From Sipunculus nudus (lineage: Eukaryota > Annelida > Sipuncula > Golfingiida > Sipunculidae), in NCBI GenBank assembly GCA_026874595.1, contig CM049317.1:11070382-11134381 (forward strand): a stretch of 64,000 bases of DNA. The letters run 5' to 3'. Each line of letters begins with the position of its first letter. Positions within the stretch are counted from its first letter, which is position 1. The notes under the pieces were generated by a model. That model was not told the DNA's origin and did not search any database. It saw nothing but the letters and a program-made list of their open reading frames with translations. The position numbers and the translations under genes are program-made. Positions 6,135 through 54,467 of the stretch are shown here, in pieces.

Positions 6135-7125
6135 ACAAGGGACCTATGGGTCACTGTGCTCAGCTGACGTTAAACTTGAAGGTAAAAATCTAAAATAATA
6201 TCTAATGGAGATAAAGTGTAAGAAGAAGAGGTATTAAGGCCATGGTTGGTTTATATGATTGGTTTGTATTGATGAGCAAGAAATTGTTGCAAAAAATATT
6301 TTGTGACCTGACCATGTGTTTCCTAATGTTGAAACTAAAGCATGTGAGCAGTTTGTGAACAAATGATCCGTACTATTACCATGATCATTAGTTGGTTTTT
6401 CGATTAACTGTTGACATTTCAGTAGTTTACACATTTGTTCAATTGAATCTATTTTTTTTGTATAATATATATTATTAAATATATATGTATTTTTTTATGA
6501 AATGTATACAGTTGAAATATAGCTAATTAACAACATAAAACAGGGCAAACAAAGCCTGATCTCAAATTCTGCTGAGGCAGGAAAATAATGAACAAATGTT
6601 TGTATTAAATCCTGATTTTTTTATCACATCAATTATTTTCTAATTTAAGTTTATATTTCTATACATTTCCAATTTAACATATATATCTGAATATAAAAGT
6701 TGATTCATAATTCTCAATTGCATCATCATAAATCTCAATCACGTCAGATAACACCACATCATGCATACAAATGTTAATTTATTTTTTACCACAAAAATAT
6801 ATCTTTTAAATCTGCAAAACAATAAATATCTAAAAATAATACTTGATTTAGATTTCACAATTTTTAATTGTGTCTTTATTTATCCATAATGTGCTTCATA
6901 TTTTATAATAATTTAAGGGTTCATTTATATTTGTTAAAATCATTTAAAAGAAAAATTGATTTCTTTAAAAATGCTACATTACACAACATTGCATCTTCTG
7001 GATTACACCTTGAATTATTTTTTCAAGGAAAGTTTTTGCATATCGAAGTGGAAACAGCATTACAATTAAGGAGATACAGTGAAAACAATAACAATTACTG
7101 CATAACACTTGGTGGGTTGGGTTTG

Positions 7126-7157
<32 letters not shown>

Positions 7158-8047
7158 GATTGGGGTGGTGATATGAGAATAACTGTACACCTGTCACAGC
7201 AGGGGATCTCCCCCAGTGACTGTAACAAATCAGAAACCCTGGCATAGCTGACTTCCAGTGACCTGGAGTGGGACCCTGCATCTGTAATCAAAGCAAGTGA
7301 CTACAGAAAAAAAAAATCAATGACTAGCTTAATTTTCAAGCTTTTATTTTCAAATTTCAGATTTAGACAAACTAAATATTTATGTTTACATGCTGTGAAA
7401 ATTAAATCAATGGTGCTTACAGGAAAAAAACGTGCCATGGTCAAAGTTGGGCAAAATTTAAGGTACTGATTTTATTTTTATGCTAATAACTTAAAAAAAT
7501 TACAAAATTCAGATCTAATTTTGGGTAAACAATTGAATCTTAATTAAACATAGTTATATACTTGAGAAAATAGACTCTAGTTTCAAAATTTTTCATGTTA
7601 AGTGAGATATTATTTTTCCTGATTTTTTACAAAGTCCATTATGTTTGGGCCCATATCTTAAAGAATTTATACTTTACAGACTTAATTTCTGGCATGTACA
7701 TAGTAACTATATAGAGGAATATTTATGGTAAATATGAGGGAAAACAGATGAGTCGTTTTGATATTAGGTAGTCCTGAAGTGTGAAAATAGGATTTTAATA
7801 AAAAAATGAGGTTTTTCCTTAATTTCTCAAAGGAACAAAGTCGCAAAGACCCAGTTTTCGGCTTGGTAGGAGATCTTGGGGACATCTAACATTATGCTGA
7901 ATTTTGGATTCCTAGGTCTTACGGTTTCAAAACGTGCCACATCTACGGACGGACGGACGGACGGACGGACGGACAGACAGACGGACGGACGACGGACAAT
8001 GGACCACGACTATAGCTCAGATGACTTATAGTCAGCTGAGCTAAAAA
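6135..8047 (+). mobile_element. Helentron-like non-autonomous element, family H, copy 1
   Basis: This copy is about 1.9 kb. It begins with the 5' signature GGGACCTATGGGTCACTGTG followed by GCTCAGCTGAC. It ends with an (ACGG)n microsatellite at 7947-7990, then CTATAGCTCAGATGACTTAT and AGTCAGCTGAGCTAAAAA. The 5' box GCTCAGCTGA is the exact reverse complement of the 3' box TCAGCTGAGC, a subterminal inverted repeat as reported for Helentrons and their non-autonomous relatives. The tetranucleotide tract plus right flank also fits the bivalve pearl elements. A 30-nt G run lies at 7127-7156. No transposase is encoded. It is nearly the same along its whole length as copy 2 at 30319-32222. Confidence 0.75.
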
Positions 8048-11311: not shown

Positions 11312-12240
11312 AGACACCCAGGGGTCTAATGTTCACTCTCTGAATTACTGTGCATGATAAGAAAGAAAAGGTGAATGTGAAAATATAATTCATTACTTTC
11401 CAAGTGGACAGTGTCCTATTGCACAAGATTGCAGAGTGAACGAACTAAAAATGTGAAAAAGAAATGGGAAATGAGAAAAGGATGAAAATGGGAAATGAGA
11501 AAAGGATGAAAAATGGGAAAAGAGAAAAGGATGAAAAATGGGAAATGAGAAAAGGATGAAAAGGATATAGATTAATCAGAAGACAAAATTTGAAGTTCTG
11601 AAAAGGCATCATCCAGAAACAAATTTTACTGAATTTATACTCATTTTATTTCCCTTCCTTCAAGGAATTGTTTTCTTTGATATGAAACCCAAAATATTAA
11701 TACTTAAAAGCCTGCAAAAGTAGGTCACCACAGGTGGTGCCACCTGCAGGTCAGAATCATTTAGCAGTCACTTGATCAATATTTCTGTGAACTTTGAAGC
11801 TGAAGGCTGCAGCAGTTCCTAAGATAACTGCAAACAGACAATACATCATGTATGGAAACACATCAAGTTGTCAAATTTTGTGATCAACACAATTTGAAGT
11901 TCCATGGCACAGACATCGTCTTGAAAATAATTTGACTGAATTTATGCTCATATTATTTCTCTTCCTTTCAGCTATTATTTACTTTGATATGAAAGCCAGA
12001 ACAAGTGCTAATACTTTATGACATATCTTGGAAAAAGCACCATTACAGCCTGCAGAAAGTAGGTCAACACAGGTGGCTCCACCAAAAGTTTATTTTTGCA
12101 TGTTCATCCCATGATCAGTAATTCTGCAAAGTTTCATGAAGGTAGCTGCTGTGGCTGTTGAGATATTTGGTAACAGATGGTGGACTGTAGACAGGACAGT
12201 GGATGCTGCGATGTAACATAAGTTCACAGAGTGAACTAAT
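11312..12240 (+). mobile_element. Helentron-like element, family G
   Basis: It directly abuts the 3' end of the preceding element. The 5' end reads ACCCAGGGGTCTAATG followed by GTTCACTCTCTGAA. The 3' end reads AACATAAGTTCACAGAGTGAAC and then TAATC. The 3' box TTCACAGAGTGAAC is the reverse complement of the 5' box with one mismatch, the same subterminal inverted-repeat layout as families H, C, E and F. A shorter internal 3'-end-like sequence (GCAGAGTGAACGAACTAAAAA region) at about 11430-11450 suggests a nested or shortened copy. A purine-rich tandem repeat lies at 11449-11560. Confidence 0.55.
11449..11560 (+). repeat. Polypurine tandem repeat, ~28-bp period
   Basis: About four units built on ATGGGAAATGAGAAAAGGATG, almost entirely A and G on the plus strand. 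Units differ by one or two A residues. It lies inside the family G element. Confidence 0.8.
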
Positions 12241-15200
12241 CATATCACTCCACTTACACTGACTAATGTCACACCAATCCTAATTTAAATTTACAGTACA
12301 AATTGTGATAATGCTAACTACAATACCAGGTATATATATGTAAATGGTTGTCCTGTTGAAAAGATCTAACACCTGACAGTGTAGCCTTATAAATTTAAAC
12401 TGTTCTGCCCTTGCTGCACTCTATGATTAACAGGTATTAATGGGGCTACAGCAGAGCTTACCTGTATTTGTACTTGTTCACAGGTGTTTTTAGGGTAAAT
12501 ATAGAGCAACATACCAAAGATAATTGTTTTTATTGCAAATGCACTTACCTACAGTAAAACAATTAAAGGTGATTAAATACTACCTTATCAGTATTTATAT
12601 GCCACACCTGTATGACTGGTAGCTGTTTATTTCATGATTGATATATTTATTCTTCTTTTCTGAGTTCTTATGTGAGACAGACAGAGAACCTTCTACCCTT
12701 GGACACCTCCTATTGTTGATATTCATGAGCTATAAGTCAATTAAATTTAATTAAATTAAATATCAGTGTTTTGGAGATTTCATGTTATATAACATGGTTT
12801 ACCAGTTTCCAGGGCCACTGAAGTTGCCCTTCTGTTCTGATATTTGTGAATGGGAAATAATTAGGCAGTGAATCACTCAGGAATAAGATGCCTCATGAAC
12901 TCAAATACATGTACAGGAGGGTCCTGGGATGTTGCATAGGAACTTGTAAACAAATTAGTTATCATAACTCTGAAAACAACCTAATCAGCAACCTAATTTG
13001 TGCATGGTATTGGAACTGCAGTACTTCAAAATGATGAAATCACAAATTTTGGTCTCAATAAGCCTTCATTTCACCCACAGAAAATTATGGTAACTTTTTC
13101 TGGTTGAAGCCTTACGATTATATATGTTCTGTTCAAAAACGAAAAGAAGAGACAGTCAAATAGATGAAATTTATGGCTGGGCATGGACCCATCACTGTAT
13201 GTCAGCATGACTGAGAGTCAGCCGTTCATAATGCTTATGAAAAAATAACCTTTACAGGTGAATAATTTATTTCAATCTAGCCTTGACCACTAACTAAATG
13301 GCAGATGACCAAGCCACATCTGTGGGGTATGAATACCACACACCTAGCATCATGCTATATAAATACGGTCCCCTAACATATGGCGATATTAGACTTGGCA
13401 TGGGCTGTCTGTTCAGACCAAGAAGTTAAAGCTATTGATCCACCACTGATCTCGTTTCAATCTTCCTCTGCCATGCTCCCGAGGCTTGCATTCATCCTGA
13501 ATTTTTTTTTTACGTTGCCATAGTAACCAGTATCTACAGCACCCCTGGGAGAAAGGCTGTCAATGCAAGAAAAGCCTCCTCCACCTCTTCCTCTTACGAG
13601 ATAAAAATGCCGTGGAAACAGCATGCTGAGTGAGCTGAAGCCCTCTCCAGGTTCCATGCCAAATAACAGGGTTGAAAAACAGTCCCCTTACAAAGTGCAT
13701 TTCCCGAACTATTCCTGTATTAAGTATATTCACTTAGCTTTATTAACATAATGATAATACAAGTGCTAGGAATGTTTTGACCTTTATTCCTAGACATAAT
13801 ATTGTTCAATGTGACGCAAGATATGTGTTATTCCATTCTTAACAAGATGTTTTGCTTGTTATCATATTTTTCTTAATGGAGAAGTAACTGGCTCGTAGGG
13901 GGCACTGTCTTCTTAAGACAGTTGAAGGTAACTGTATGATAAGTAAGTTATTATTCAGCACCTTACATATTCTTATGCAGGGAGAAACTAGAAGCCACAA
14001 CCTGTAATTGAGACACTTGAGTAGTTCTTTAACACTCTATAAAGATTTCATTGTTTTGCCAAGGTGTTGGTTGAAATTGAACCATGGATCCTCCACAAGA
14101 TCACATCTAACTCCTGGCTAATTAATTATATTTAAATACATTTTCTGTAAGATAATTTATTAATTGGTCATATTAATTTTCCTTGAGATAATCTATATTT
14201 TTCAACCAAGATTTTTAATTTAAACTTTTTTGTAGATAAATTTTGATATTGCTTCACATTTTTCTCAAACCATATTTTTTAAAGATTTTAGTTGATAAAA
14301 TTGAAAGTTTAGAGTTAATATGCTATGCATTTAGTGATCTGGCAAAGGCTTCACCCCAAAGTATAGACTTTGATCAAATGTTAACAATCCAATAATTACT
14401 CATAAAAAAAATCATTCTCTTATAGATTAATAAATCATACATCAACAACACATTTAATAAAATACAACAATAAAAAAGTCTGTCCACCCATTTACCATTT
14501 TTTATGCAAAACTGAAAATTTTAGTCTTAAAATATATCTCTTCATACAATAAATTTTGAAAATGGTCATTCAATTAAAGGTCCCTAAAAACAAATGAAGT
14601 TTGCTACATACCACAACACCAGAAGCTGTTGTGGTATGTAGCAAACTTCATTTACTATATTATAAATGATCATTAACATAAATTTACACAAATATAACGG
14701 TACAAGAGAAAACTACAAAAAAAAGGAAAAAAAAGTAGTATGATGAATGGGTGCTGGTCCTTGGATGTGGTTTCCTGTAGAAACCGCATTTGTATGTCAT
14801 AACAATAAGTGAACAAAAGCCTGCACTCACTCTGTGAGAACTCATTTGTTTCAGTATCCCAAGCTAATGTAGATAGTAACCAGTGAAACCATAATATTAA
14901 TATGGTGTACCAGACAGGGCCAATTTTAAACTGGACCATCTGGCACTCAGGCACTATACATATTATGAGGATGAAGGTAATGATATATATATCTAAAATG
15001 GTACTGCATCAAAAACATTCTATGCAACACTGAATGAGAAATGAGGCAGAACTCTGGTCTGTCTGACAGAGACCAATTACTGAGTAACAAGTTCAAATGT
15101 TAAATTCTTTTGCCTGTGATGCTTGTACTTCAAAAGCTGAAAATAAACACAGTCATAAAGAGACACCGCCAGTGCTCATCAAATATGCCAAGTATTTGAA

Positions 15201-18210: not shown

Positions 18211-18304
18211 CATGAGAGAAAGGGTCTGACACTGCCATGTCATGTAGTCCGAAATCTGAATGGAATTCTGCAGATGTACATATACTTAGTTAAGCTACCA
18301 TTAT

Positions 18305-18917
18305 ACGAGTGACCCAGGGGTCATGTCGCTCAGCCAACTAGGAAGACATTCACAAAAGGAATTTTATCATCTCACTGCCAAACTTTATAGATGGATCTCA
18401 ATCAAACTGAAGCTTAGCTCAGAGGATATGGGTAACAGAGACCTAATTTCAGGTTTTCATGGACCTCACTGAATGTTAAATTAGAAGATTCTAGGATGAA
18501 TGGTTACAATTTGTACCCTGTTAATGGATGACTGCATCTTTGAGGGTCTCAAAATATAGTAAAAAAGCGTAAAATTTCGAAAAAAAATCCAGGTGGTGCC
18601 ACCACTGATGAAACACTCCAGGATGAAAATGCATGCAAAGAATCATGGTGATAAATTTATTAGTTGTTCAAATACCGAAACTTTTTTACAAATTTTTAAT
18701 TATTCCAGGGATGGGACTTCTCAGTCCTATAGCTCAGAGGATATGGGTAACAGAGACCTAATTTCAGGTTTCCAAGGAGATTTTTCATGGACCTCCCAGG
18801 ATGTCAAGTTAAAAGATTCTAGGTTCAGTCGTTATGATTTGTGCCTGGTTAATGGAAGGACGACGGACAAAGAGTGATCACTATAGCTCAGATGACTTTC
18901 AGTCAGCCGAGTTAAAA
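18305..18917 (+). mobile_element. Helentron-like element, family H-related short copy
   Basis: About 0.6 kb. The 5' end reads GTGACCCAGGGGTCATG and then CGCTCAGCC. The 3' end reads CACTATAGCTCAGATGACTT and then CAGTCAGCCGAGTTAAAA. Internally it has two units with ATATGGGTAACAGAGACCTA, the same module as the large arrays at 48-52 kb, and one degenerate palindrome AGGTGGTGCCACCA. The 3' terminal box is partly decayed. Confidence 0.65.
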
Positions 18918-18971: not shown

Positions 18972-21359
18972 ACAAGGGACCTATGGGTCACGACGCTCAG
19001 CTGTTATATATGATAAAAAAATATTATTTAGAAATGAGGCACATGCTGGTTTTGTGTGGTAATAAATATAAATATATAAATGAAATATAACTGATATGAT
19101 TATTAAAATAATATTAAAGAATATATTCATGAATGCATTCATGAATACATTTTGAAAGTATTTGCACGAGTATTCATATATTTTCATTTTTACCTGAATT
19201 CCCATTCTTTATGCAAGAAATTTTATAATGGAGTACAAAATCATATTCGTATTTAAATACAATTACAAAGTATTTGCACCATGTCTGGAATTTATTCAGT
19301 TTTCACCAAACAATGATGTTGAGAATCCAGAATATACCAAATTCACACATGTAAATAATGATCATAAGTATCTGGTGTTATGGCTTTTATTTATATTAAA
19401 AATAACTAAAAAATTCATTTTGGACTAATTTCACATCAATGTACACACTAGACTCAGCAGGAATCTTGATTAATATTATCAACTGCATCTATGTCTAATT
19501 TCCTTCATATGATCCCTAATGATCAGTAATGAATAATATGATTTACTTCTTTATCATTAAAATTGAACTGAAAAATGCCATAGGTGACTGCATGGTGTTA
19601 TTTGGAATATGTGACATTCTACCCATCGATACAAGATTCTTATATCATCAGTAACTGCAAGTTAATTTCCTGTTATTATAAACTAACAAATTCCTTTTCT
19701 ATTTTTCTTTAATTTGTTATTAAAAACCAATAAAAGTTTATTAATTTATTGTTTTTTGTTATGTTCTTGGTTAAAACTACTAGATGAGTTGGGTTGGACA
19801 CCTGGATCAACTGTGGCTGGCCATAAGCTGCCTGGATTCCATGTATGCCTCGCCTCAAGCGTGCATAATTTGATGAAAGGTCAACAAGGTCAACATACAG
19901 GTGACTCAAGAGGGGCTGGAGAGAGCCAAAGTCTGACAGGGTCTCATAAAAAACATTAATAAAAGCTACAATTTTTGGCCAATTTCTTTCAGCTTTTTTA
20001 AACTGAAAAGCTGAAATGCTTATGTGTGCATGATATGAAAATTATATCAACAGTGCTCACGGGAAACAAACGTGCCATGGTCACAGTTGGGCAAAATTTA
20101 AGGTACAAATTTTATATTTATACTAAATAAAATATGAAAAATTCAGAACTAATTTTGGGTATTCAATTGAATCTTGATTAAATAATGTTACATCCCTGGC
20201 AAAAAAATCTCTAGCTTCAGCAATGCTCTTGTTAAGGGAGTAAATATATTTCTTGATTTTTTACAAAGTGCATTATGTATGGGCCCATAACTTAAAACAA
20301 TTACACAATACTGACATCATTCTGGCATGTGCATAGAGAATGAAAAATATGTATATTATTTATGATTAAAGTCAGATCAGTGGTTTTGATATTAGGCAGT
20401 CTTGAAGTGTAACAATGGGTTTTTAATGGAAAAATGAAGTTTTTCATTAATATCTCTAATGTCCTAGTGACCAAATTCTTGGCATGGTACGGCATTTTGG
20501 AGACATCTAACTGTATGCAGCATTTAAGGAACTTAGAGCTGAAGCTGGGGAGCTGAGCTCTTGCAAACTGCATAACACTAGCTTGATGTAAACAATATGT
20601 TACATGGTGCTTGAAAACTTGATTAAAATCTACAGTTTTTGATCAACTGGTTTCAGATTTTTGGTGTTAACAGTTGAAATGCTAACAAAAACAGGCTGTG
20701 AAAATTAAATCCACAGTACTTACAGGAAAAAAACGTGCCATGGTCAAAGTTGGGCAAAATTTAAGGTACCAATTTTTTATTTTTATTAATATTTAAAAAA
20801 ATTTAAAAGATCTTCATCTAATTTTGGGTATACAATTTAATTTTGATTAATTAAAGTTATATTACTGGAAAAAAGGTCCATAGCATTAACATTTTTTGTG
20901 TTAAGTGATCAAATATCTTTTCTGATTTTTTACAAAATGCATTATGTTTGGGCCCATAACTTTTTTAAATTAAATAATACAGACATAATTTCTGGCATGT
21001 ACATAGGAACTATATAGAGGAATATTTATGGTAAATATGAGGTAAAACAGATGAGTGGTTTTGATATTAGGCAGTCCTGAAGTGTGAAAATAGGTTTTTA
21101 ATAAAAAATTGAGGTTTTTCATTAATTTCTCAAAGGAAAGAAGTTGCAAACACCCAGTTTTCGGCTTGGTAGGAGATCTTGGGGACATCTAACATTATGC
21201 CGAATTTTGGATTCCTAGGTCTTACGGTTTCAAAACGTGCCACATCTACGGACGGACGGACGGACGGACGGACGGACGGACGGACGGACAGACGGACGGA
21301 CGACGGACAATGGACCACGACTATAGCTCAGATGACTTATAGTCAGCTGAGCTAAAAAT
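18972..21359 (+). mobile_element. Helentron-like element, family H, copy 3 (two internal modules)
   Basis: It starts GGGACCTATGGGTCACGACG then CTCAGCTG, and ends with a long (ACGG)n tract at 21249-21303 followed by AGTCAGCTGAGCTAAAAA. It shares its 3' half with the copies at 6135 and 30319. Unlike them it carries two successive versions of the internal module beginning near ACGTGCCATGGTCA (about 20040-20600 and 20690-21240), so the module has been duplicated or the other copies lost one. Confidence 0.7.
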
Positions 21360-24737: not shown

Positions 24738-24881
24738 AACAAGGCCTACAGGCCTAATGCGAACCTGTGCATATGGATATACACCATATATATGAACAAT
24801 GCAAGTACTAAACATTTTGAACCAGAAACAATACACAAACATCACTGCTGAAATTCTGGCATGGGTGCACACATCACAAAA

Positions 24882-26630
24882 ACTAGAATACGGGTAGTCG
24901 ACAAGCGACTACTTGTATCCGCCAAAATCAGAGAAGGACGGGTGAAGTAAGGCATGGATTGAGTGGCAAGGGGATATAGAGTTACATGTGTTAAATATTA
25001 GAATGGATCTCTGCCACATAAACATGATTGTAGGTGGCGCCACCTGTTATTTGAAACTATCCAAGATATATACACAAGCAAAATTTGATGTGGAAAAGTC
25101 AAACCACTGTAGAGATATGAGTGATTTTATCCCACAGCAGACAAACAGATGGACGCTGTGCAAAAATGGCTGCAGGTTGCCCCACCATTTTTGTGTATGT
25201 TTTAAAGCTATCCAAGGGCTTCATTTGTGTAAAAAAAAATTCCTGATTGGTTGAATGAGTCCGGAGATATAAGCATGGATGTCTACAGCATGAATGTGAA
25301 TGTAGGTGGCACCACCTGTCATAAAATCAAGAAAGCTATGCGGGATGTATAAGCATGCTGAATTTCAGGTAATTTGGTCAAACCACTGCAGGGATATGAG
25401 TGATTTTAACCAAAGGCAGACAAACAGATGGACGCTGTGTAAAAATGGCTGCAGGTGATGCCACCATTTTAGTGAATGTTATAAAGCTATCCCAGGGCTA
25501 CATTTGTGTAAAATTTTTTTCCGGATCGGTCAACCGGTTCCCGAGATATATGGGTTTATGTGTGGAGCGTTAACGTGAATGTAGGTGGCGCCACCTGTCA
25601 TAAAATCGAGAAAGCTATCTAGGATGTATACGCATGCCGATTTTTAGGTGAATTAGTCAAACCACTGCAGAGATATGAGTGATTTTAACCCCAGGCAGAT
25701 GAACAAATGGACACTGTGCAAACATGGTTGCAGGTGGCACCACCTTTTGTTGTGTATGTTATAAAGCATTCCCAGGGCTACATTTGTGTAAAAAATTTTT
25801 CCGGATCGGTCAAACGGTTCCCGAGATATAAGGGTTTATGTGTGTAGCGTTAACGTGAATGTAGGTGGCGCCACCTGTCATAAAATCGAGAAAGCTATCT
25901 AGGATGTATACACATGCCGAATTTTAGGTGAATTAGTCAAACCACTGCAGAGATATGAGTGATTTTAACCCCAGGCAGATGAACAGATGGACACTGTGCA
26001 AACATGGTTGCAGGTGGCGCCACCTTTTGTTGTGTATGTTATAAAGCTATCCCAGGGCTACATTTGTGTAAAATTTTTTTCCGGATCGCTCAAACGGTTC
26101 CCTTGATATATGGGTTTATGTGTGGAGCGTTAACGTGAATGTAGGTGGCGCCACCTGTCATAAAATCGAGAAAGCTATCTAGGATGTATACGCATGCCGA
26201 ATTTTAGGTGAATTAGTCAAACCACTGCAGAGATATGAGTGATTTTAACCCCAGGCAGATGAACAGATGGACACTGTGCAAAAATGGTTGCAGGTGGCGC
26301 CACCTTTTGTTGTGTATGTTATAAAGCATTCCCAGGGCTACATTTGTGTAAAAAATTTTTCCGGATCGGTCAAACGGTTCCCGAGATATATGGGTTTATG
26401 TGTGGAAACAGACGCACAAACGGACGCTGGGCAGAGACGAAAGGTCAGAGGTCAAGGTCACTTGGTTAGGCACCAGTTCACATGTGACCCGATAATTTGT
26501 GTAAGTTTCGGAAAAATCTATCCAGTAGTCTCAGAGGAGTTCTCCGGAAACGAACGCGGCGGCGGCGGCGGCGGCGGCGGAACCCGGTCAAAAACATAGT
26601 ATCCGCAAAACTTCGTTTTGGCGGATACAA
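24882..26630 (+). mobile_element. Helentron-like element with 280-bp tandem array, family E, nested in F
   Basis: The 5' end is ACTAGAATACGGGTAGTCG followed by TTGTATCCGCCAAAAT. The 3' end is a hairpin, GTATCCGCAAAAC then TTCGTTTTGGCGGATACAA. The 5' box GTATCCGCCAAAA is the exact reverse complement of the 3' TTTTGGCGGATAC. The core is a tandem array (unit starts near 25301, 25581, 25861 and 26141) with an exact 280-bp period and two GGTGGCGCCACC-type palindromes per unit. Family F copy 2 shows the unoccupied version of the insertion point. Confidence 0.75.
26555..26581 (+). repeat. (CGG)n triplet repeat
   Basis: About nine CGG triplets near the 3' end of the family E element, in an otherwise AT-rich region. 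Its place corresponds to that of the (ACGG)n tract in family H. Confidence 0.95.
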
Positions 26631-29217
26631 TTATTGTAGGTGGCACCACCAGTCATGTATACAACAAAGCTATTTGACATGTACACATATGCCCAATCTC
26701 AGGCTGATATATCAAATTCTTCTGTAGAATTAAGCAGGCAAATACACTTTGCAAAAGTCATTGTAGATGGCGACACCTGTCTTGTGAACGAGAAAGCAAT
26801 AAAAACACATAGACAGGTCAGAATATCAGGCCAATACATCAAACTTACCTTGAGTCTGATGCTAGGGGCTGACCAGGCTTAGGTGAGAAAGGCTGTTGCC
26901 CCGAGTGTACTGCGACAAATTACTGGCTCAGGCTACTGCACTGAGTGAACTCTTGACCTGCACCTGGCTAGACTGAGTGAATTTTTGACCTGTACCTGGC
27001 TGCACTGAGTGAACTCTTGACCTGTTGCATAATCTGAAACAGTTGGCAGTCTGCTAAAGCAATAAATCAATCCAGGCTGACCTTTTGCCTATTGCAAAAT
27101 CTGAAATAGTAGCATCACAATTGCATAAGCTCACAGATTGGCTCCATATGCAGCCCTGAGGGGCATGACACCCATGAGGTGATCACATGATACTCATGAG
27201 GTGATCACATGCTACGCATGAGATGATCACATGCTGCCCATGAGGTGATCACATGCCTTGTGCTTGGCTGCACTGACTGAACTGTTGACCTATATTCTGC
27301 TGCTCTGAATGAACTCTTGATCTGTTGCCAAATCTGAAACTGTTGGCAGTTTCTCAACCTATTCAAGAAACGTACACAATCTTGGCCTGTTATGTAACTG
27401 CTAAAATTTATCCAACACAAACCATTTGAACAAACTTGAAAGGGCTCGCCTCTGGGATCATTTCTGTATATTTGGACAATTTGGCTGGACTGTTTACACG
27501 AAGAAGACTTTTACAAGTTTTTTTCAGCTTTTTCCTTGTAAAATCTAAGTAAATGCAGATAGCAAAAATAAGATGAATCTATCAACATTTGATATGTGAC
27601 GGATAATTGCATAACATTTGGGGATGGTAGCTCCTGCTATTCCTGAGAAATTATGAGTTAGTGTACAGATGATATGTAATATCATAAATCTACTTTTTTA
27701 AAAGCTTTTAAAAACATTCTTGTCAATATTTTCAATAGATAACCTGAAATCTAAATGTCTAGAGGCATGATGTAATGGATGCTGATAAACTGGTGCTAGG
27801 CTAGATGTATCTGCTTCACACAGCTAACATATTTGGTAAAATGACTCAATTCAATCTTTTTAATTCAGCCAAATTCATTTTTTGGAACCATAAAAGACAA
27901 TTATTATAAGAATGATTCAGGGAATTATTCTTGCAAAATATTAAACACATTGGCCTCAGTATCATCATCAGTCGAAAAACGTTTTGTAGGTTTATAACTC
28001 ATATGGGAAAATACAACAAATGGCAAAGTTCAGCTTCACATAACTCAGCCAAAAATCATTGAATCAAAACCATTTGAACAAACTTGAATTATCAACATCT
28101 AAGGATAATTAATGTGTGAGATTTAAGAATATGGCCCAGTGGTTTTTGAGAAGAAGATTTTTGTAGCCACTTAGCTAACATGGGCTGTTATGGCATATGA
28201 CTAAATTCAGCTTCCAATAACTCAGCCAAAAGTCACTGAACTGAGACCATTTGAACAAACTTGAATTATCAACATCTCAGGATAATTAATGTGTGAGATT
28301 TAAGAATTTGGCCCAGTGGTTGTTGAGAAGAAGATTTTTGTAGCCACTTAGCTAACATGGGCTGTTATGGCATATGACTAAATTCAGCTCCCCATAACTC
28401 AGCCAAAAGTCACTGAACTGAGACCATTTGAACAAACTTGAATTATCAACATCTAAGGATAATTAATGTGTGAGATTTAAGAATTTGGCCTAGTGGTTTT
28501 TGAGAAGAAGATTTTTGTAGCCACTTAGCTAAAATGGGCTGTTATGGCATATGACTGAATTCAGCTTCCCATAACTTAGCAAAAAGTCACTGAACTGAGA
28601 CCATTTGAACAAACTTCAGAAAGCACTACCCTAGGATCATTTCTGTGCAATATTAAACAATTTGGCCAAGAAGAAGTTATTTGTAGCTGTCAGTGTGATA
28701 CGGACACTGATGACCCCGTACAAAAAAGGCCAATGCAGGTGGCGCCACCAATACCTCAATTTCAGATATGACTCATGTGACCAACATTGGCATAAAATTT
28801 TGTGATGATAGCTCCAGCCGTTTCTGAGATTTAAATTTTAATATGCTTTTTTGCACAGTTAACAAAGTTCAACCTCCTGTAACTCAGCCAAAAATCTTCG
28901 AACTGGAACCATTCGAACAAACTTGAGAAAGATTGTTCCAGGGATCATTTCTGTGAAATATTGGACAATTTGTCTGGACAGTTTCAGAGAAGAAGATTTT
29001 TAAAGTTTTTATAGCTTTTTCCCTATAAAATCTAAGGAAATGCAGTTAGAAAAAAATAAACAAAATCCGATATAGTTTTTTGGATGACTGAATATTTGCA
29101 TAAAATTTGGTGATGCTAGCTAATGCCATTTTTGAGAAAGCTATGGTTAATGTACAGACGACGGACGACAAACGACGGACGACGCCGCACCATCGCATAA
29201 CCTCACAGGTTCACTAA

Positions 29218-30318
29218 AAATGACAGGAAGCAAGTGCTACCACTTGTCAAGTAGTCCTAAACCGAAAATGGAAACTCTGCAGATGTACATACTTAGGTTA
29301 AGAATTAGATAAGTCAGCATTAAAAAAAAATGGAGGAGGTTACTTCCACCAAAAAAAAAATGGTTTTGGTGTAGATCCAGCACATGGTCTGGATCCAAGA
29401 ACAGAACCAAGGAATAGTCGCATATGTACAGTCATTTAGGGACAAATGAACCTGGGATATGGACCAAAAAAGTGAATGGTGGAGGCTTGTATTCATTTGA
29501 ATGCAGATTTCTAGTTTCAACTGTTAACTTATCAATATATTTCTGGTGCTGAAGCAAAAAGTCTCTGAACAGAAATTATGCAAAATATAAATGGACTGAA
29601 TCCATGACACATTTACAAAATTCAACTTCAAAACAATCATGCAAAAAGGATTACTTCAGCCCACATTTTTTGCAAAAATTTCAAAATATCTTTTCTTGTT
29701 GAATTATATAATATCAGTGTTCCAAAAGAATACAATTCACAAAAACATGTTTATTATGTTATTGTACTCCAGCAGATTATATGATCAGAACAAATCATCA
29801 ACAGGCCAATAAAACAATTAAAACAGGCTTGGACTAGATAAACACTACAATTAAAGTCTGTACGCTTTTATTCCACTCCTACTTGGCAACTGCTCTGTGT
29901 CAAGTACTTTGTGTTTATCTTTATACTGTAATCATTGTGGTCAGGGTTGGCAGTTTTATCCGCAGCTGGTTTAAGCCACTGGATAAATCCGGATTAATCC
30001 AGATTGGATAAAACAGGTTTTATCCAGTATTATTCAAAGTTTGGGTGTATATATACTGTCTTTGTAGTAGACATTTTATATTAAGTTTGGCTTTCCACTG
30101 TACAATAATACAATATTGATAAGAAACATTTGTGAATAGTTAACTGAATTATTAAGTGACCATATATTTATATATTAAACACAGTTTTTGTCTCAGATAG
30201 TGATGCCATGATCTTAATAACAATTTGGAAAACTGAAATTATTTCTCTTCTTTAGAGAGGTCAGTCAAAGTGTAACTTATTTAAACTTTATCATCTATTT
30301 TGTACATTTCACTATAAA
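29218..30318. other. Intronic sequence with TTTTATCC-rich repeat edge
   Basis: Mostly unique AT-rich intron. At about 29942-30045 it contains CAGGGTTGGCAGTTTTATCC followed by several GGATTAATCC/GGATAAAAC motifs. A matching cluster lies at 32970-33075 on the other side of the family H insertion. Confidence 0.5.
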
Positions 30319-42318: not shown

Positions 42319-42349
<31 letters not shown>

Positions 42350-42664: not shown

Positions 42665-42720
42665 TCAGGAGCGGCTCCAGGATTTAAGAAAAAAAAAAAA
42701 AAAAAGGGGGGGGGGGGTTG
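42665..42720 (+). mobile_element. Possible hAT 5' terminus (partner end not found)
   Basis: CAGGAGCGGCTCCAGGATTT followed by poly(A) and poly(G) resembles the outer end of widespread hAT-type elements. No matching right terminus or 8-bp duplication was found, so it may be truncated. Confidence 0.35.
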
Positions 42721-43657: not shown

Positions 43658-43714
<57 letters not shown>

Positions 43715-44604: not shown

Positions 44605-44606
44605 AA

Positions 44607-46094
44607 ACTAGATGTGTCGGAACGACACGAATGCCCCCGCCTGGGGCAAATTAGAAACATTTGTTAAATTTTGTAAAATTTTTTAAGTTCAGGAAGTGTT
44701 GTATGGTCAAAAGTAGGTCAACAAGGGCCAAAGGCAAACTTGATCTGTAAAGGGTCATTATCAAGCAACACACCAAAAATCAGGCCAGTATCTGCAGGCA
44801 TTGTGAAAAAAAGTCCAGATATGTGCATTTTTCATGAAAATTTCTGTCTTTCATGAAATTTTCTATGTTCAGGATCTGTCATATGGTGAAAAATAGGTTA
44901 ACTGGGACGAAACGCGAACTCGATCTGTAAGTAGTCATTATGCGCCCACAGACCAAACATTAGGCCAGTATCTGTAAGCATTGCATTGCGAAACTAGAAT
45001 ATTAGCAAAAGTTGATAATCATTTATAAATTTAAATTGGGGAGGTATATACCATGTTTCATAACAATCCACCAAATGCTTCCTGAGAAATAAGCTCCTAA
45101 GTTTTTTACATCCTCACTGATGAAATAAAATTCCAATGGTGAATCCTTTTAGAGATATCCCGCTCACAAGGTAAAAGTTAACAGACGCGGAACGGACGGA
45201 CGGACGGACAGACAGATGGACAGACGGACAGCTTGGGTGACGACAATAGCCCATCAGCCTATGAGCTGAGGGCTAAAAACGGCTGTACATGTGTATTTGT
45301 CATGAAAATTTCTATTTTTCATGAATTTTTCTAAGTTTAGGAGCCGTAAAACGGTCAAAAGTAGGTCAACCGGGACGAAACGCGAACTCGATCTGTAACT
45401 GGTCATTATCTGCCCACACACTAAAAATCAGGCCAATATCTGCAGGCATTGCAAAGAAAAGTCCGTACATGTGTATTTGTCATGAAAATTTCTATTTTTC
45501 ATGAAATTTTCTAAGTTTAGGAGCCGTAAAACGGTCAAAAGGAGGTCAACCGGGACGAAACGCGAACTCGATCTGTAACTGGTCATTATCTGCCCACATA
45601 CCAAAAATCAGGCCAATATCTGCAGGCATTGCGAAAAAAAGTCCGTACATGTGTATTTGTCATGAAAATTTCTATTTTTTATGAAATTTTCTAAGTTTAG
45701 GAGCCGTAAAACGGTCAAAATTAGGTCAACCGGGACGAAACGCAAACTCGATCTGAAACTGGTCATTATCTGCTCACACACCAAAAATCAGGCCAATACC
45801 TGCAGGCATTGCGAAAAAAAGTCCGTACATGTGTATTTGTCATGAAAATTTCTATTTTTCATGAAATTTTCTAAGTTTAGGAGCCGTAAAACGGTCAAAA
45901 GTAGGTCAACCGGGACGAAACGCGAACTCGATCTGAGACTGGTCTTTATCTGCCCACACACCAAAAATCAGGCCAATATCTGCAGGCATTGCGAAAAAAA
46001 GTCCGTACAACTGTTTGATTTCGGAATGACGGAATGACGGAATGACGGACATGGGTAAAACTATATGCCCCGGCCACTTTGTGGGGCATAAAAA
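44607..46094 (+). mobile_element. Helentron-like element with 180-bp tandem core, family C, copy 2
   Basis: Same ends as copy 1: start ACTAGATGTGTCGGAACG with TGCCCCCGCCTGGGGCA, and an intact 3' hairpin ATGCCCCGGCCACTTTGTGG then GGCATAAAAA. Four core units (from about 45288) repeat with an exact 180-bp period and high identity. A separate small element is nested at 44994-45279. Confidence 0.78.
44994..45279 (+). mobile_element. Small Helentron-like element, family D, nested in family C
   Basis: It interrupts the C-family core after TTGCGAAA; the core resumes at GTACATGTGTATTTGTCATG. It starts ACTAGAATATTAGC, contains an (ACGG)/(GACA) tract at about 45190-45232, and ends with a hairpin region TAGCCCATCAGC then TATGAGCTGAGGGCTAAAAA. 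The host sequence on both sides matches neighbouring units, so the insertion is clear. Length is about 286 bp. Confidence 0.7.
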
Positions 46095-46587: not shown

Positions 46588-46905
46588 GAACAAGGCCTAC
46601 AGGCCTAATGCGAACCCGTGCAATGTGATATACATAAGGTATAATGCTTCCATGCTGGACTGATACTTTTCAAGTACATGTGTGACAAGTATATGTACAA
46701 TGCAAGCACTGAACATTTTGAACCTGAGTGCATGCACCAATTACACAAATATCACAGCTAAAATACTGGCATAGGTGCACAGAACACATAAATGAATGTA
46801 AGTGGCACCACCACTAACGAAAAAGGCATTAAAGATGTATGGACATGTATGGACAATTTCAGGCTTCAAACCACTCTTTGGCTATGTGCACAGATGCATG
46901 AAACA

Positions 46906-47040
46906 ACTAGATACAGGTAATCGAAAGCGGCTACGTATACCCGCCGAAATCAGAGTAATACAGGTGAAGTGAGGCATGGATTGAGTGGTAAGGGGAATAG
47001 AGTGAAATGGGTGTCTGCCACGTAAACATGATTGTAGGTT
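46906..47040 (+). mobile_element. Family E 5' end (partial)
   Basis: ACTAGATACAGGTAATCG then GTATACCCGCCGAAATCAGA matches the start of the family E element at 24882, including the following GTGAAGTGAGGCATGGATTG. The corresponding 3' hairpin was not found nearby; it may have been lost, or the boundary is blurred by the AGGTGGCACCACC units that follow to about 47460. Confidence 0.55.
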
Positions 47041-47822
47041 GCACCACCAGAGGCCAACACTGCAAATCACTCATGAAAAAAAGGGCATTAATTTATTCAA
47101 CAAAAACGGAAAGGTGAGTGGTGCCACGTGACTGATTTACGAGAAAATTTCCAAGATGGATGGACATGCCAAATTTCAGACCAATACCTTGTACTCCTGA
47201 GGTATAAGCAATTTTCACCAAAAGCGCATGTATGAATAGACACTTCAGAAAAACGATTGCAGATGGCACCACCAGTCTTAAGTACAAGACTGAGGAGTCC
47301 AAGATCTATGGATATGCACAATTTAAGGCCAATAATGCGAATCCCTCCCGAGAAAAGGGCATTTATTGATTAAAAAAAAAACAAAGGTAGGTGGCACCAC
47401 CTGTCTGTTTTTCGAGCAAACTTTCCAAGATGGATGAACATGCTTAATTTAAGAAATTTCAAATTTCAAGGTCTCTACTTGAAATAACTTTGAATTTAAC
47501 AGGCTTGCATTGACTTTTTAAAAATAATACAATCATCTTCCCATGAAAACACAACACCAAGCTGTTTTAGTAGTCAGACTGCAGCTCATAGGCCTCTTCC
47601 AATCCAGGCACTATGCCAAAGCTATTTTTTAGAGCTGACATCATCTTGGCTAATGGCAAAAATCCAGGCACTGGCAAATCTTGGTACTTCAGCCAATGGT
47701 CAACCAAGTCCTGCCATCTGTACATAAAAGTGGTTCCCAATTGAAATAACTTTGAAATAAATTTTCCCAATACAAAATGCTTTGCAGCTGACTTTTTATT
47801 AAAAAAAGAAATCGGGAGTATT

Positions 47823-50800
47823 AACAAGTGACCCAGGGGTCATGACGCTCAGCTGACCAGGAAGACATTGACAAAAGTAATTTTATCATCTGAATGTCAA
47901 ATTTGAATTAAATACTTTTTCCAAACTTGACCTTTTGTATAAAATCATCCAATATTCATTGGGGTACTATGGAGCTCTGTAGCATGAAGGATATGGGTAA
48001 CAGACACCTATTTTCAAGGTTTACAAGATGACTTTTCAGGGGTCTCCCAGCATGTCAAAAAATAAAATTCTAGGTCCAGTTATTATGATTTGTGCCCTGT
48101 TAACAAATCCAAATGTTTATTCTGGGGGGTATTTCAAAGCCGCATAGGATGAAGGATATGGGTAACAGAGATGTAATTTCAGGTGCACAAGGAGACTTTT
48201 CAGGGGCCTCCCAGCATATCAAGAAAGGAGATTCTAGGTCAAGTCATTATAATTTGTGCTCTGTTAACAGATGACCAAATCTTTATTCTGGGGAGTACTT
48301 CGGAGCCCCAGAGCATGAAGGATATGGGTAACAGGGACCTTATTTCGGGTTTCCATGTAGACCTTTTATGGGCTTCCCTGGAGGTGAGGACAGAAGATTC
48401 TAGGTCCAGTCATTATGATTTGTGCCCTGTTAATATATGACCAAATCTTTATTCTGGGGGGTACCTCAGAGCCCCATGGCCCACAGAATATGGGTAACAG
48501 GGACCTTATTTCGGGTTTCCATGTAGACCTTTTATGGGCTTCCCTGGAGGTGAGGACAGAAGATTCTAGGTCCAGTCATAATGATTTGTGCCCTGTTTAC
48601 AGATGACCAAATGTTTAAAGATCACAAAAGTAGAGAAAAAAAATCGTAAAAAATAAAAAAAATATAGGTGGCGCCACCAATCTCCAGAAATTGATGAAAC
48701 ACTCCATGATCAATATCCATGCAAAGAATCATGGTGATTAATGCATTAGTTGTTCAGATACTTGAGCTTTTGTATTAAATTTTGCATTATTCTGGGGGGT
48801 ACTTCAGAACCCCATAGCTCGAAGAATATAGGTCACAGTGACCTAATTTCAGGTTTGAAAGGAGAATTTCCATAGACCTCCCAGGATTTCAAGTAAGAAG
48901 ATTCCCGGTCTAGCGGTTACAATTTGTGCCCTGTTAACAGACAGACGCCTGGATGGCCGGACGGACGACGGACAAAAGGTGATCCCTACAGCTCAGATGA
49001 CTTTCAGTCAGCTGAGCTAAAAATTGAAAAAATACAGGTGGCGCCACCAGAATGCAAAAACTGATGAAACATTTCATGATCAATATCCATGCAAAGAATC
49101 ATGGTGATCAATATAATAATTGTTCAGATACTTGAACTTTTGTATCAAATTTTCCATTATTCTGGGGGGTACTTCGGAGCCCCATAGCTCAGAGGTTATG
49201 GGTAACAGAGACCTAATTTCAAGTTTTTAAGGAAACTTTTCATGGGCCTCTCAGCATGTCAAGAGAGAAGATTCTAGGTCCAGTTGTTACGATTTGTGCC
49301 ATGTTAACAGATGACCGCATCTTATGAGGTCTCAAAAATAGAGAAATAAATTCGTAAAAATAAAAAAAAAATACAGGTGGCGCCACCATACTGCAGAAAC
49401 TGATGACACATTCCATGATCAATATCCATGCAAAGAATCATGGTGATCACTGCAATAGTTGTTTAGATACTTGAGCTTTTGTATCAAATTGTCCATTATT
49501 CTGAGGGATACTTCAGATGACTTACAGTCAGCTGAGCTAAAAACACTTAATGGTCAATATCCATGCAAAGAATCATGATGATCTCCGTATTAGTTGTTCA
49601 GATACTTCAGCTTTTGTATCAAATTGTCCATTATTCTGAGGGATACTTCAGAGACCTATAGCTTGAAGGATATGGGTAACAGAGACCTAATTTCAAGTTT
49701 CCACAGGCAATCTTCATGGGCCCTTCTTGCATGACAAGAATGAAGTTTCTAGGTCCAGTTGTTGCAATTTGTACCCTCTTGATAGATAACACAGGTGGCG
49801 CCACCAGTCTGCAGGAACTGATGGAACATCTCATAATCAATATGTATGCCAAAAATCATGACCATCAGTGATGTAGTTATTGAGATATTGAAGTTTTTGT
49901 ATGAAATTTTTTACTTCTCTGGGGGGGTACTTTGGGGCCCCATAGCTCCAAGGATATGGGTAACAGAGACCTAATTTCTGGTTTCCATGGAGACTTTTCA
50001 TAGGTCTTCTAGTGTGTTGAGAATGAAGATTCTAGGTCCAGTCGTTACTATTTGTGCCATGCTAACAGATGACAGCATCCTTAAAGGTCTCAAAAATAGA
50101 GGAAAAAATCGTAAAAAATCGAACGATACAGGTGGCGCCACCAGTCTGCAGGAACAGATGACACATCTCATGATCAATAGTTATGCCACAAATCATGACC
50201 ATCATTCAAGTAGTTAATGAGATATTGAAGTTTTTGTATGAAATTTTTTACTTTTCTTGGGGGTACTTTAGGGCTCCATAGCTCGAAGAATATGGGTAAC
50301 AGAGACCTAATTTTGGTTTCCATGGAGACTTTTCATAGGCCTCTCAGTGTGTCGAGAATGAAGATTCTAAGTCCAGTCGTTATGATTTGTGCCACGTTAA
50401 CAGATGACAGCATCCTTAAAGGTCTCAAAAATAGAGGAAAAAATCGTAAAAAATCAAACAATACAGGTGGCGCCACAAGTCTGCAGGAACTGATGGAACA
50501 TTTCCTAATCAATATGTATGCCAAAAAATCATGACCATCAGTGATGTAGTTATTGAGATATTGAAGTTTTTGTATGAAATTTTTGACTACTCGGGGGGGG
50601 GGGGGGGTACTTTGGGGCCCCATAGCTCGAAGGATATGGTTTACAGAGACCTAATATCTGGTTTCCAAGGATATTTTTCATGGACCTCTCAGTGTGTCAA
50701 GAATGAAGATTCTAGGTCCAGTCGTTACGATTTGTGCCATGCTAACAGATGACAGCATCCTTAAAGGTCTCAAAAATAGAGGAAAAAATCGTAAAAAATC

Positions 50801-52097
50801 GAACGATACAGGTGGCGCCACCAGTCTGCAGGAACAGATGACACATCTCATGATCAATAGTTATGCCACAAATCATGACCATCAGTCAAGTAGTTAATGA
50901 GATATTGAAGTTTTTGTATGAAATTTTTTACTTTTCTGGGGGGTACTTTAGGGCTCCATAGCTCGAAGAATATGGGTAAAAGAGACCTAATTTTGGTTTC
51001 CATGGAGACTTTTCATAGGTCTCTCAGTGTGTCGAGAATGAAGATTCTAGGTCCAGTCGTAATGATTTGTGCCACGTTAACAGATGACAGCATCCTTAAA
51101 GGTCTCAAAAATAGAGGAAAAAATCGTAAAAAATCAAACAATACAGGTGGCGCCACCAGTCTGCAGGAACTGATGGAACATTTCATAATCAATATGTATG
51201 CCAAAAATCATGACCAACAGTGATGTAGTTATTGAGATATTGAAGTTATTGTATGAAATTTTTGACTACTCGGGGGGGGGGGGTACTTTGGGGCCCCATA
51301 GCTCGAAGGATATGGTTTACAGAGACCTAATATCTAGTTTCCAAGGATATTTTTCATGGACCTCTCAGTGTGTCAAGAATGAAGATTCTAGGTCCAGTCG
51401 TTACGATTTGTGCCATGCTAACAGATGACAGCATCCTTAAAGGTCTCAAAAATAGAGGAAAAAATCGTAAAAAATCGAACAATAAAGGTGGCACCACCAG
51501 TCTGCAGGAAGTGATGACACATCTCATGATCAATAGTTATGCCACAAATCATGACCATCAGTCAAGTAGTTAATGAGATATTGAAGTTTTTGTATGAAAT
51601 TTTTTACTTTTCTTGGGGGTACTTTGGGGCTCCATAGCTCGAAGAATATGGGTAACAGAGACCTAATTTCTGGTTTCCATGGAGACTTTTCATAGGTCTC
51701 TCAGTGTGTTGAGAATGAAGATTCTAGGTCCAGTCTTTACGATTTGTGCCTTGTTAACAGATGTTTACATTTTGAAAGGTCTCAAAAATAGAGAAAAAAA
51801 TTCGTAAAAAATTGAACGATACAGGTGGCGCCACCAGTCTGCAGGAAGTGATGGAACATCTCATGATCAATATGTATGACAAAAATCATGACCATCAGTC
51901 AAGTATTAAATGAGATATTGAAGTTTTTGTTTGAAAGTTTTTACTTTTCTGGGGGGTAGTTTGGGGCCCCATAGCTCGAAGGATATGGGTAACAGAGACC
52001 TAATTTCTGGTTTCTAAGGAGATTTTTCATGGACCTCCCAGGATGTCAAGTAAGAAGATTCCAGTTCTAGCGGTTACGATTTTTGCCTGGTTAACGG

Positions 52098-52135
<38 letters not shown>

Positions 52136-52197
52136 GGACGACGGACAAAGAGTGATCGCTATAGCTCAGATGATTTTCAGTCAGCTGAGCTAAAAAT
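47823..52197 (+). mobile_element. Family H-type Helentron-like block: one 5' end, three 3' ends
   Basis: One 5' end lies at 47823 (GTGACCCAGGGGTCATGACG then CTCAGCTGAC). Three successive 3' ends of the form CAGTCAGCTGAGCTAAAAA finish at about 49025, 49543 and 52197. The third is preceded by a (GACA)n/(GACGG)n tract at 52094-52150. The body is tandem modules with ATATGGGTAACAGAGACCTA and GATTCTAGGTCCAGTCGTTA-like segments. Two adjacent units near 48260-48590 are nearly identical with a 166-bp period. No coding capacity was found. Confidence 0.65.
49794..51960 (+). repeat. ~340-bp tandem array with dimeric higher-order structure
   Basis: Palindrome boxes mark unit starts near 49794, 50131, 50466, 50811, 51146, 51487 and 51834, spaced 335-347 bp. 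Alternate units are most alike: units at 50131, 50811 and 51487 share CATGATCAATAGTTATGCCA, while those at 50466 and 51146 share AATCAATATGTATGCCAAAA. The real repeating block is therefore a dimer of about 680 bp. Most box copies are GGTGGCGCCACC. Open frames of 63-101 codons recurring here are by-products of the repeat. Confidence 0.85.
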
Positions 52198-54467
52198 TAT
52201 TACAGATGAACATTGAATGCTAAATTATGATACAGATACATCTCACTGTTGGCAAATTCTTGAATTAAGTTGAGTATGGATACCATTTATTTATAATCAA
52301 AGTACAGCCGTCTTTATATAACCACAGAGAGCTGATTATTCATGGTCGTAACATTGCCTGGTATCATGAATGATTGATATCATAAAGCTAATTTTTATTT
52401 TAAAGCTTTTAAAAACATTCTTGTTAATATTAGCCACAGATAACCTAAAATCTAAATGTCTAGTGGCATGATATAATAGGTGCTAGGCTAGATGTAACTG
52501 CTTCACACAGCTAACACATATGGTAAATTGACTCCATTCAATCTCCATTATTCAGCCAAAAATCATTTATGTGGAACTAATAAAGACAATTACCATAAAA
52601 ATTATTGTTGGGATTGTTCTTGTAAAATATTAAATAAATTGGCTTCAGTGGCGTCAGTCGAAAAATGTTTTGCAAGTTTATAACTCATATAGGAAGATAC
52701 AGCAAACAGCTTATGGTCAGCTTCCCGTAACCCAGCTAAAAAGCACTGAAACAAAATTATTTGAACAAGCTTGAATTATCAACATCTGAGGATAATTAAT
52801 GTGTGAGATTTAAGAATTAAGCCCAGTGGTTTTGAGGAGAAGATCTTTGTAGCCACTGAGCTAAAATGGGCTCTTATGGCATATGACTGAATTCAGCTTC
52901 CCATATCTCAGCCAAAAGTCACTAAACAGAAACAGAAACTTCGGAAAGCATAACCCTAGGAGCATTTCTGTGCAATATTAAACAATTTTGCCATATGGTT
53001 TCAGAGAAGAAGTTTTGTGTAACCCTCAGGATGATACAGGCACTGATGACCCACGCACAAAAAAGGCCGATACAGGTGGCGCCACCAATACCTCAATTCC
53101 AGATATGACTCATGTGACCAACATTGGCTTAAAATTTGGTGATGATAGCTCCAGCCGTTTTTGAGATTGAAGTCTTAGTAAGCTTCTTTGGACAGGTGAC
53201 TAAGTTCAACCTCCGGTAACTCGGCCAAAAATCACGGGAACCATTCGAACAAACTTGACAGAGATTGTTTCTGGGATTATTTCTGTGACAATTTGGCTGG
53301 ACGGTTTCGGAGAAGACGATTTTTTAAGGTTTTTAAGCTTTTCCCCCATAAAATCAAAGTAACTGCTGATAGCCAAAAGATTAACAAAATCCGATAGAGG
53401 TTTTTAGATGACTAATTTTTTGCATAAAGTTTGGTGATGCTTACTCCTGCCGTTTTCGAGATAATACGGGTTAACGTACAGACGACGGACGCCGCCGCAC
53501 CATCGCATAAGCTTACAGGTTCGCTAAAAAATACAGGTGGCGCCACCAGTCTTCAGGAATTGATGAAATACTGTTTGATCAATATGTATATGAACAATTA
53601 TGGCAATCAATGTATTAGTTATTCAGATATTTGAGCTTTTGTATCAAACTTTTAATTATTGTGTGTGTGTGTGTGTGGGGGGGGGGTACTTTTGAGCCCC
53701 ATAGCTTACAGGATATAGGTCAGAGTGACCTAATTTTAGGTGTTCAAGGAGATTCTTTTTATTGACCTCCCTGGGTATTCAGTGGGAAGATTCCAGGTCC
53801 AGCAGTTTTGATTTTTGCCCTGTTAAGGGATTGACAGAAAGACTGGGCGATGGACAACAATGGCGGACCTAGCGGTTGCGGTTATAAAATTTGCCGCCCC
53901 TCTTTAGATAAAACTGGATTCAATTTACATATGCAAAAATGTATGGTCAATTTTCTTTGTAAAAGACAACACAATTATATCATGTAATTAACTGAAAGGG
54001 TATCTTTCACCATGGGTCTACGTTCACCCAACACTGAAGGGAAATTACCTCCTTGCTAATGAAAACCAAAAGATCTCTCCGACTCGTTTCAAACAATGAA
54101 TTTTTTTGCACTTCACGGAAAGGATAATCCCTGAATGCATGGAGAAAAATACTATTATATTGCAGGTTTACATATAATGTGGTGACGTAATTTTTCGTAT
54201 GCACACGATTTGTGACTAACAATAAAACTAACCATGGAAAGACCTTTTTTTTTGTGTGTAACTTATTTTTTATTTCAGAAACTAAACACAAACATCTTGT
54301 AACTTATAATTACACCTCTTTGTTATCGGATATATATACCTGTAATACTGCTTCTTTAGAGTTGTGCAGTGGCGTAAATTTATCTTCAAGAGTAGGGGGG
54401 GACTCGCAATAGGGGGGGGGGGGGTGACAGGCGTGGAGGGTAGTCAAAACTGGGATAAAACAGACAC

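Follow-up and report, generated by a model that had tools for sequence, protein, structure and literature searches.

Probable non-autonomous Helentron elements of several families, all on one strand, in a 64-kb window of the Sipunculus nudus genome

Introduction

The non-autonomous Helentron/Helitron2 elements (HINEs) have an architecture that is already published (PMC3627910, PMC4067079, PMC7492417, PMC5148889). Here, repeat families in a 64,000-nt stretch of the sipunculan Sipunculus nudus (contig CM049317.1, positions 11,070,382 to 11,134,381; the window, to whose forward strand all coordinates below refer) are compared with that architecture. With a probability of about 0.93, these repeats, which fall into several families and are all found on the minus strand, are non-autonomous Helentron/Helitron2 elements. 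Their layout follows the published one, and these members are new with respect to the same sources.

Rules for the paired boxes, the terminal hairpin, the TT target and the absence of target duplication are set out in PMC3627910 and PMC4067079. In the Pacific oyster, Cg_HINE is described with subterminal inverted repeats (subTIRs) of 11-12 bp, a complementary inverted repeat at the 5′ end, a 3′ palindrome, a GTCY/GTCC microsatellite, satellite-like central repeats and a T-rich target without duplication; several unrelated families occur in one genome, and no autonomous partner is linked to them (PMC7492417). The Sipunculus locus has the same features, with 3′ palindromes that are visible but mostly no stronger in folding than shuffled sequence; the likeness is one of layout. 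The two differ in that oyster copies lie in both orientations, whereas those described here are nested and share one orientation (PMC7492417).

The Helitron2/ATIR elements likewise have a 5′ box within a hairpin near the end, a 3′ box ahead of a 3′ hairpin and T at the 5′ end; compared with them, the present 3′ hairpins are mostly weak, and CTWGTT (CTTGTT or CTAGTT) stands at 12 of the 14 3′ ends (PMC3627910). DINE-1/INE-1 and the mite HINE/Helentron elements share the subTIR, inverted repeat, 3′ palindrome, TT target, variable number of terminal T residues, microsatellite and central repeats (PMC4067079). In mites, some 38-60 bp separate the 3′ subTIR from the end (PMC4067079); in four families of the present window, the distance from the start of the box to the end of CTWGTT is 32-47 nt. 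The canonical Helitron (Helitron1; 5′ TC, 3′ CTRR, target between A and T) also has a 3′ palindrome, and C, D, E and H3 have a CTAG-like end. The Sipunculus elements were nevertheless not placed in that class: they lack 5′ TC, their 3′ junctions are CTWGTT in the proportion given above, their target is not A followed by T, and they carry a 5′ hairpin with inverted boxes.

Element families and nesting

When the window was compared with itself, several families of interspersed repeats emerged, and many of them have tandem cores. Thirteen elements were delimited (six H, two C, one D, one E, two F and one G), covering 24.2 of the 64 kb (Table 1). Several of them sit inside others. A preliminary description had ended this element-bearing stretch at position 53530; elements continue further, with an H-type element at 55889-57737. 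The boundaries of H1a are fixed by a copy at 30317-32222 (H1b) with 93% identity and unrelated flanks. H2b, with tandem repeats of 166 bp and 335 bp, resembles a concatemer whose inner copies are without 3′ ends, and is read as nested in F2. A search for the boundaries of the older H2-like repeat in which C2 and F2 sit turned up no 10-nt partner box.

The end of G coincides with the 5′ T-run of C1 (11309-11330), as if the T-run of a resident element had been the target. A lone H-type box, TCAGCTGAGCC, lies at 23656-23670 next to different sequence and is possibly a degenerate 5′ end. An exact F-box string at 17002 was rejected as an F element; the sequence runs on as GTGAAC, and there is no element at the site.

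Table 1. Coordinates of elements and other features in the window
Feature	Position	Strand	Remarks
H1a	6135..8046	-	5′ box 8032-8041, partner box 6158-6167 near true 3′ end; also picked by structural scan
H1b	30319..32221	-	copy alignment, ends, structural scan
H1c	18973..21357	-	box match 9 nt; structural scan
H2a	18303..18917	-	diverged; own-pair box score 5, without CTWGTT
H2b	47824..52195	-	5′ ends 52195, 49542, 49022; single 3′ end 47824
H3	55889..57737	-	H-type ends around different core, ~280-290-bp repeats
C1	9594..11312	-	180-bp array
C2	44607..46095	-	host: older H2-like repeat; D sits inside C2
D	44993..45279	-	287 bp, within C2 array; hairpin at 5′ end strong; 3′ end CTAGT, box absent there
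E	24882..26629	-	~280-bp array; host: F1; 15-nt exact end-box match
E2	46906..47048	-	E-type 3′ end alone, 76% identity to E, within F2
F1	24738..29219	-	host: SINE-like repeat; E sits inside F1
F2	46589..53531	-	host: H2-like repeat; two parts on either side of H2b
G	11313..12241	-	14-nt boxes with 1 mismatch; no CTWGTT, 5′ end TT only
GGTGGCGCCACC, exact or near	11733, 12072, 18592, 25033-26293, 28738, 48667-51824, 53075, 53536, 57517		central repeats
Exon like BMPR2/activin-receptor-type-II ectodomain	1241-1414	-	PDB BMPR2, E 0.0046; no Pfam match
Probable neighbouring exon	2340-2588	-	by eye, splice junctions and cysteines; no significant PDB or Pfam match

End anatomy and polarity

On the minus strand, the true 5′ end consists of a T-run, a box and, in most families, a hairpin that the box forms with a second copy of itself further downstream. 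The T-run has 4-6 T, except in E and G. Examples of this end are TTTTAGCTCAGCTGACTATAAGTCATCTGAGCTA in H1, TTGTATCCGCCAAAACGAAGTTTTGCGGATAC in E and TTTTTAGCCCTCAGCTCATAGGCTGATGGGCTA in D, and a GTCC/GTCT (GTCY) microsatellite lies just behind it in H1, H2b and D. The true 3′ end is formed by the partner box, a small palindrome and CTWGTT. Because the Helentron design appears in the minus-strand reading, the end with ACTAGA or ACAAGG is the true 3′ end, and the end with CTAAAA is the true 5′ end. The preliminary description had assigned the two ends the other way round, which is reversed with respect to Helentron polarity. Its account of plus-strand endings in CTAAAA or ATAAAA, given for most elements, does not apply to E and G. 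As it stated, ACTAGA opens C, D and E on the plus strand (9594, 44607, 44993, 24882 and 46906), a motif that is frequent by itself, with 17 plus-strand sites in the window.

The paired boxes that had been named for H, E, F, G and C are all present in the window. In H, GCTCAGCTGA has three exact copies at 3′ ends and TCAGCTGAGC has eight at 5′ ends, one of them the lone site at 23656. Once the diverged boxes of H1c, H3 and H2a are counted, nine stand at 5′ ends against six at 3′ ends, so the excess of 5′ boxes is real but modest. The E boxes are GTATCCGCCAAAA/TTTTGGCGGATAC (24915 and 26616), the F boxes GCGAACCTGTG (24759) and CACAGGTTCAC (29204), and the G boxes GTTCACTCTCTGAA/TTCACAGAGTGAAC (11331 and 12223, one mismatch). 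Box matches extend over 11 nt in H1a and H2b, 10 in H1b, 9 in H1c, H3 and F1, 15 in E, and 7 in F2 and C2; with one mismatch allowed, they reach 14 nt in G and 11 in C1. For D, a hairpin ending in GGGCTAAAAA had been reported, and this sequence is present at 45270. The hairpin is strong and lies at the true 5′ end; the opposite end has no partner box. D thus combines a full 5′ module with a CTAGT end, and is possibly a copy that stopped at a chance 3′ terminator.

Inspection by eye shows the spacer ATTAG separating box from 3′ palindrome in both F and G, and GACCCCTGGGT is common to G and H2. From such sequence likeness, some families appear remotely related at their ends.

Statistical support for boxes and hairpins

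Box pairing was scored between the initial 28 nt of every 5′ end and the final 48 nt of every 3′ end. With one element per family, the own-pair scores were 11 (H1a), 7 (C2), 5 (D), 15 (E), 9 (F1) and 11 (G), compared with a mean of 4.4 and a maximum of 7 for the 30 cross-family pairs. The true pairing, with a sum of 58, was the unique best among 720 permutations, and the runner-up reached 55. The other own pairs scored 10 (H1b), 9 (H1c), 11 twice (H2b, whose two 5′ ends were scored against the same 3′ end), 9 (H3), 8 (C1), 7 (F2) and 5 (H2a).

A structural scan for a T pair, an 8-nt box, a hairpin, a partner box and CTWGTT, which used no family sequences, returned six end pairs, all of them from the minus strand. 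Five belong to H and one to E, and two have a 3′ end in common; the plus strand gave no pair. In 80 scans of shuffled strands, the mean was 0.41 per strand and the maximum 2. The scan was not blind, because CTWGTT was picked after the ends had been seen, and C, D, F, G, H2a and H3 escape it.

Hairpins were folded with DNA parameters and compared with letter or dinucleotide shuffles. At the 5′ end, hairpins are strong in H1, H2b, H3, C, D and E, with z between -3.4 and -7.8 for letter shuffles, and those of H1, E and D also stand out against dinucleotide shuffles (z -4.8 to -6.7; D -4.8). Palindromes at the 3′ end are visible in H, E, F, C2 and G; none was seen in D. Against letter shuffles, only E (-4.1) and C2 (-2.0) stand out at the 3′ end, and the dinucleotide-shuffle test gave -0.8, -1.0 and -2.1 (the last for F).

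Empty sites and target duplication

For 14 candidate intervals, the two flanks were joined and the window was searched for matches to the result; H1c and H2a entered with provisional ends, and H3 was not among the intervals. Uninterrupted copies were found for D (in other units of the C array), E (at the matching place in F2), C2 and F2 (in H2-like repeats) and F1 (in a copy of the SINE-like repeat). The E junction aligns without gaps, and those of D, C2 and F2 differ from the uninterrupted copy by the T-run assigned to the element and by nearby T-rich sequence. The C2 and F2 sites are bounded loosely because the repeats compared are only about 66-79% identical. For the remaining eight intervals, no uninterrupted copy was found within the window. 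The interval at 49542 was dropped, since its joined flanks matched only by spanning themselves.

Insertions lie at A/T-rich targets, at TT or T-rich sites, and no clear target-site duplication was found at the D, E, C2 and F2 sites. A gapless F1 junction requires that the element be assigned two additional letters, which leaves a 2-nt AT duplication possible there. The 3′ flank of D contains an additional GCAATG-like unit, absent from the other C units; this is not a target duplication, because it stands on one side only. Target-site duplications had been proposed beforehand as evidence against a Helentron layout; the five testable sites, apart from the 2-nt ambiguity at F1, yielded none that is clear.

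Alternative explanations

Short, non-coding elements with inverted boxes near both ends could also resemble miniature inverted-repeat transposable elements (MITEs), mobilised by a DDE transposase and bounded by terminal inverted repeats that are imperfect, and the possible AT duplication at F1 would suit such elements. This is very improbable: the boxes are subterminal and asymmetric, the 5′ hairpins reuse the box, the two ends are otherwise unlike, and the other four empty sites show no clear duplication. Assignment to the DDE/MITE class, with terminal inverted repeats plus target duplication, was rejected on these observations, with the 2-nt reservation at F1. A marginally weaker candidate still is that the layout consists of chance inverted repeats picked by eye from A/T-rich repeat DNA. 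By rough estimate, chance alone should give many inverted pairs of 10 bp, spaced by no more than a few kb, in 64 kb of sequence, and D and H2a have no matching boxes. The boxes nonetheless lie at boundaries fixed by copy alignments and uninterrupted sites, and neither the permutation result (1 in 720) nor the scan (six pairs against 0.41 per strand in shuffles) is what chance would produce.

Several observations weigh against assignment to non-autonomous Helentrons. Matching subterminal boxes fail in D and H2a (score 5 each), D having no partner box at the other end despite its strong terminal hairpin. E and G start with TT only, and G and H2a do not end in CTWGTT. The 5′ hairpins of G (-2.5), H2a (-2.5) and F1 (-1.6) are modest, and F2 has none (-0.1); the 3′ palindromes are short and mostly no stronger than those of shuffled sequence. 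In addition, no Rep/helicase gene was seen in the translated parts of the window. Even so, the claim of Helentron-type subterminal inverted repeats is supported by the end anatomy together with five empty-site comparisons.

Cores, coding capacity and autonomous partner

H-type ends surround at least three cores: H1 (three elements), H2 (18303-18917 and 47824-52195) and H3 (55889-57737). The earlier proposal of one replication machinery acting on many cores is valid within H, because the H1, H2 and H3 cores have a common box. It does not extend across families. Members of one Helentron family have at least 11 bp of identical subTIR in the published scheme (PMC4067079); by this scheme, and because their boxes differ, the families here are different Helentron families. 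Separate Rep specificities would be the simpler reading of these box sequences, each family perhaps needing a matching Rep.

Only one closed open reading frame (ORF) of at least 150 aa is present in the window (161 aa). In translations with stops written as X, made in all three frames for the minus strand over its full length and for the plus strand from 32.3 to 47.3 kb, Pfam detected no transposon domain; two matches below cut-off in one frame (LAP1_C and Oxidored_q4) were taken as chance. Among ten ORFs searched against Pfam, there was one weak match below cut-off (FPL) and none for the receptor-like ORFs. None of 4227 Rfam families matched at gathering score. The H 5′ hairpin pattern had 0 matches in viral and bacterial/archaeal contig collections, which says little because of the origin of those collections.

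Proposed mechanism

From the literature, Rep/helicase supplied in trans by autonomous Helentrons would nick the 5′ end, and rolling-circle replication would then peel off one strand. Once exposed, the 3′ box could pair with the 5′ box and open the 5′ hairpin; box pairing and the 3′ palindrome together would set the end of replication. Such a box/hairpin switch has been proposed as a termination signal (PMC3627910). The single strand or circle would then join between T residues. Missed or lost 3′ ends may account for the concatemer-like H2b and the surplus of 5′ boxes, and tandem elements with 3′-truncated inner copies are mentioned for the oyster (PMC7492417). Exchange of the interior between fixed ends could yield the different H cores. 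The 3′ hairpin and circles of Helraiser back the mechanism for Helitrons generally, not for these elements (PMC5876387).

A shared palindrome and other features of the window

The 12-bp palindrome GGTGGCGCCACC occurs in the window 18 times exactly, 27 times with at most one mismatch and 33 times with at most two; the corresponding figures for 100 shuffles are 0, 0.05 and 0.56. Exact copies lie in H2b (eight), E (six), F1, F2 and H3 (one each), and at 53536, in an H2-like repeat beside F2 (one). Copies with a single mismatch include two in G and one in H2a, and the E array (25033..26304) holds four copies with one or two mismatches besides its six exact ones. All but one of the 33 copies are within delimited elements, none being in H1, C or D, and CA or TA precedes 32 of the 33. 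Independent origins must be far fewer than 18, because many are array copies and the E and F units are further alike. A text search, a poor detector of sequences, found no relevant mention of the palindrome in print.

Three further repeats were noted. At 54473-55829, an inverted repeat of about 181 bp (92% identity) passes at each end into a run of the (AT)25 type and has the appearance of a separate element with terminal inverted repeats in a microsatellite. A short interspersed element (SINE)-like repeat, with a tRNA-like head by eye, has three copies in both orientations (24453-24744, 17930-18213 and 2005-2271), and F1 lies in one of them. A 62-bp inverted repeat, 90% self-complementary, stands outside the elements at 14592-14653.

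Orientation and gene context

Every one of the 13 delimited elements is oriented along the minus strand, for which a two-sided sign test gives 0.00024. T-runs of at least 4 number 736 on the minus strand and 601 on the plus strand, and weighting by them gives a one-sided value of 0.0004. With nine element and two end queries, nhmmer found minus-strand matches only, and the SINE control gave matches in both orientations (2 and 1); all seven GTCY runs are on the minus strand as well. The elements have the orientation of the BMPR2-like exons at the left end of the window. They may therefore lie in an upstream intron of the BMPR2-like gene and, if so, in its sense direction; no next exon of this gene was found.

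These strand counts would fit insertion into the strand exposed at a replication fork or transcription bubble, which concerns the orientation and not the type of element. A fork effect of this kind is known for IS200/IS605, for which strand-directed insertion in bacteria is established (PMC5371812). The explanation is nonetheless unlikely. The counts come from a single 64-kb window that was not randomly chosen, and the pattern was noticed after the fact. Because of nesting and insertion into resident T-runs, the events are not fully independent; loss of inverted copies may be explanation enough, and a bias relative to the gene could be due to selection. Moreover, oyster HINEs occur in both orientations (PMC7492417). 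A broader and still less probable proposal is that all six Helentron families insert into only one strand of a chromosome block, by joining single-stranded T-runs exposed at a fork or in a transcribed intron, with orientation recording the direction of the fork or of transcription, and that GGTGGCGCCACC, present in central repeats that are otherwise unlike, is a common protein-binding site that would aid repeat spread. No report of strand-directed insertion of Helentrons was found in the literature searched, to which subscription journals did not belong, as judged from titles, abstract openings and passages of PMC5371812, PMC5876387 and PMC4683698. The one-way orientation is thus a lead only.

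Conclusion

The pattern of one architecture around many cores is identified here as the published Helentron layout, with the polarity fixed and nested empty sites found within a single window. If the orientation holds genome-wide, strand-directed insertion of eukaryotic rolling-circle elements would become directly testable.

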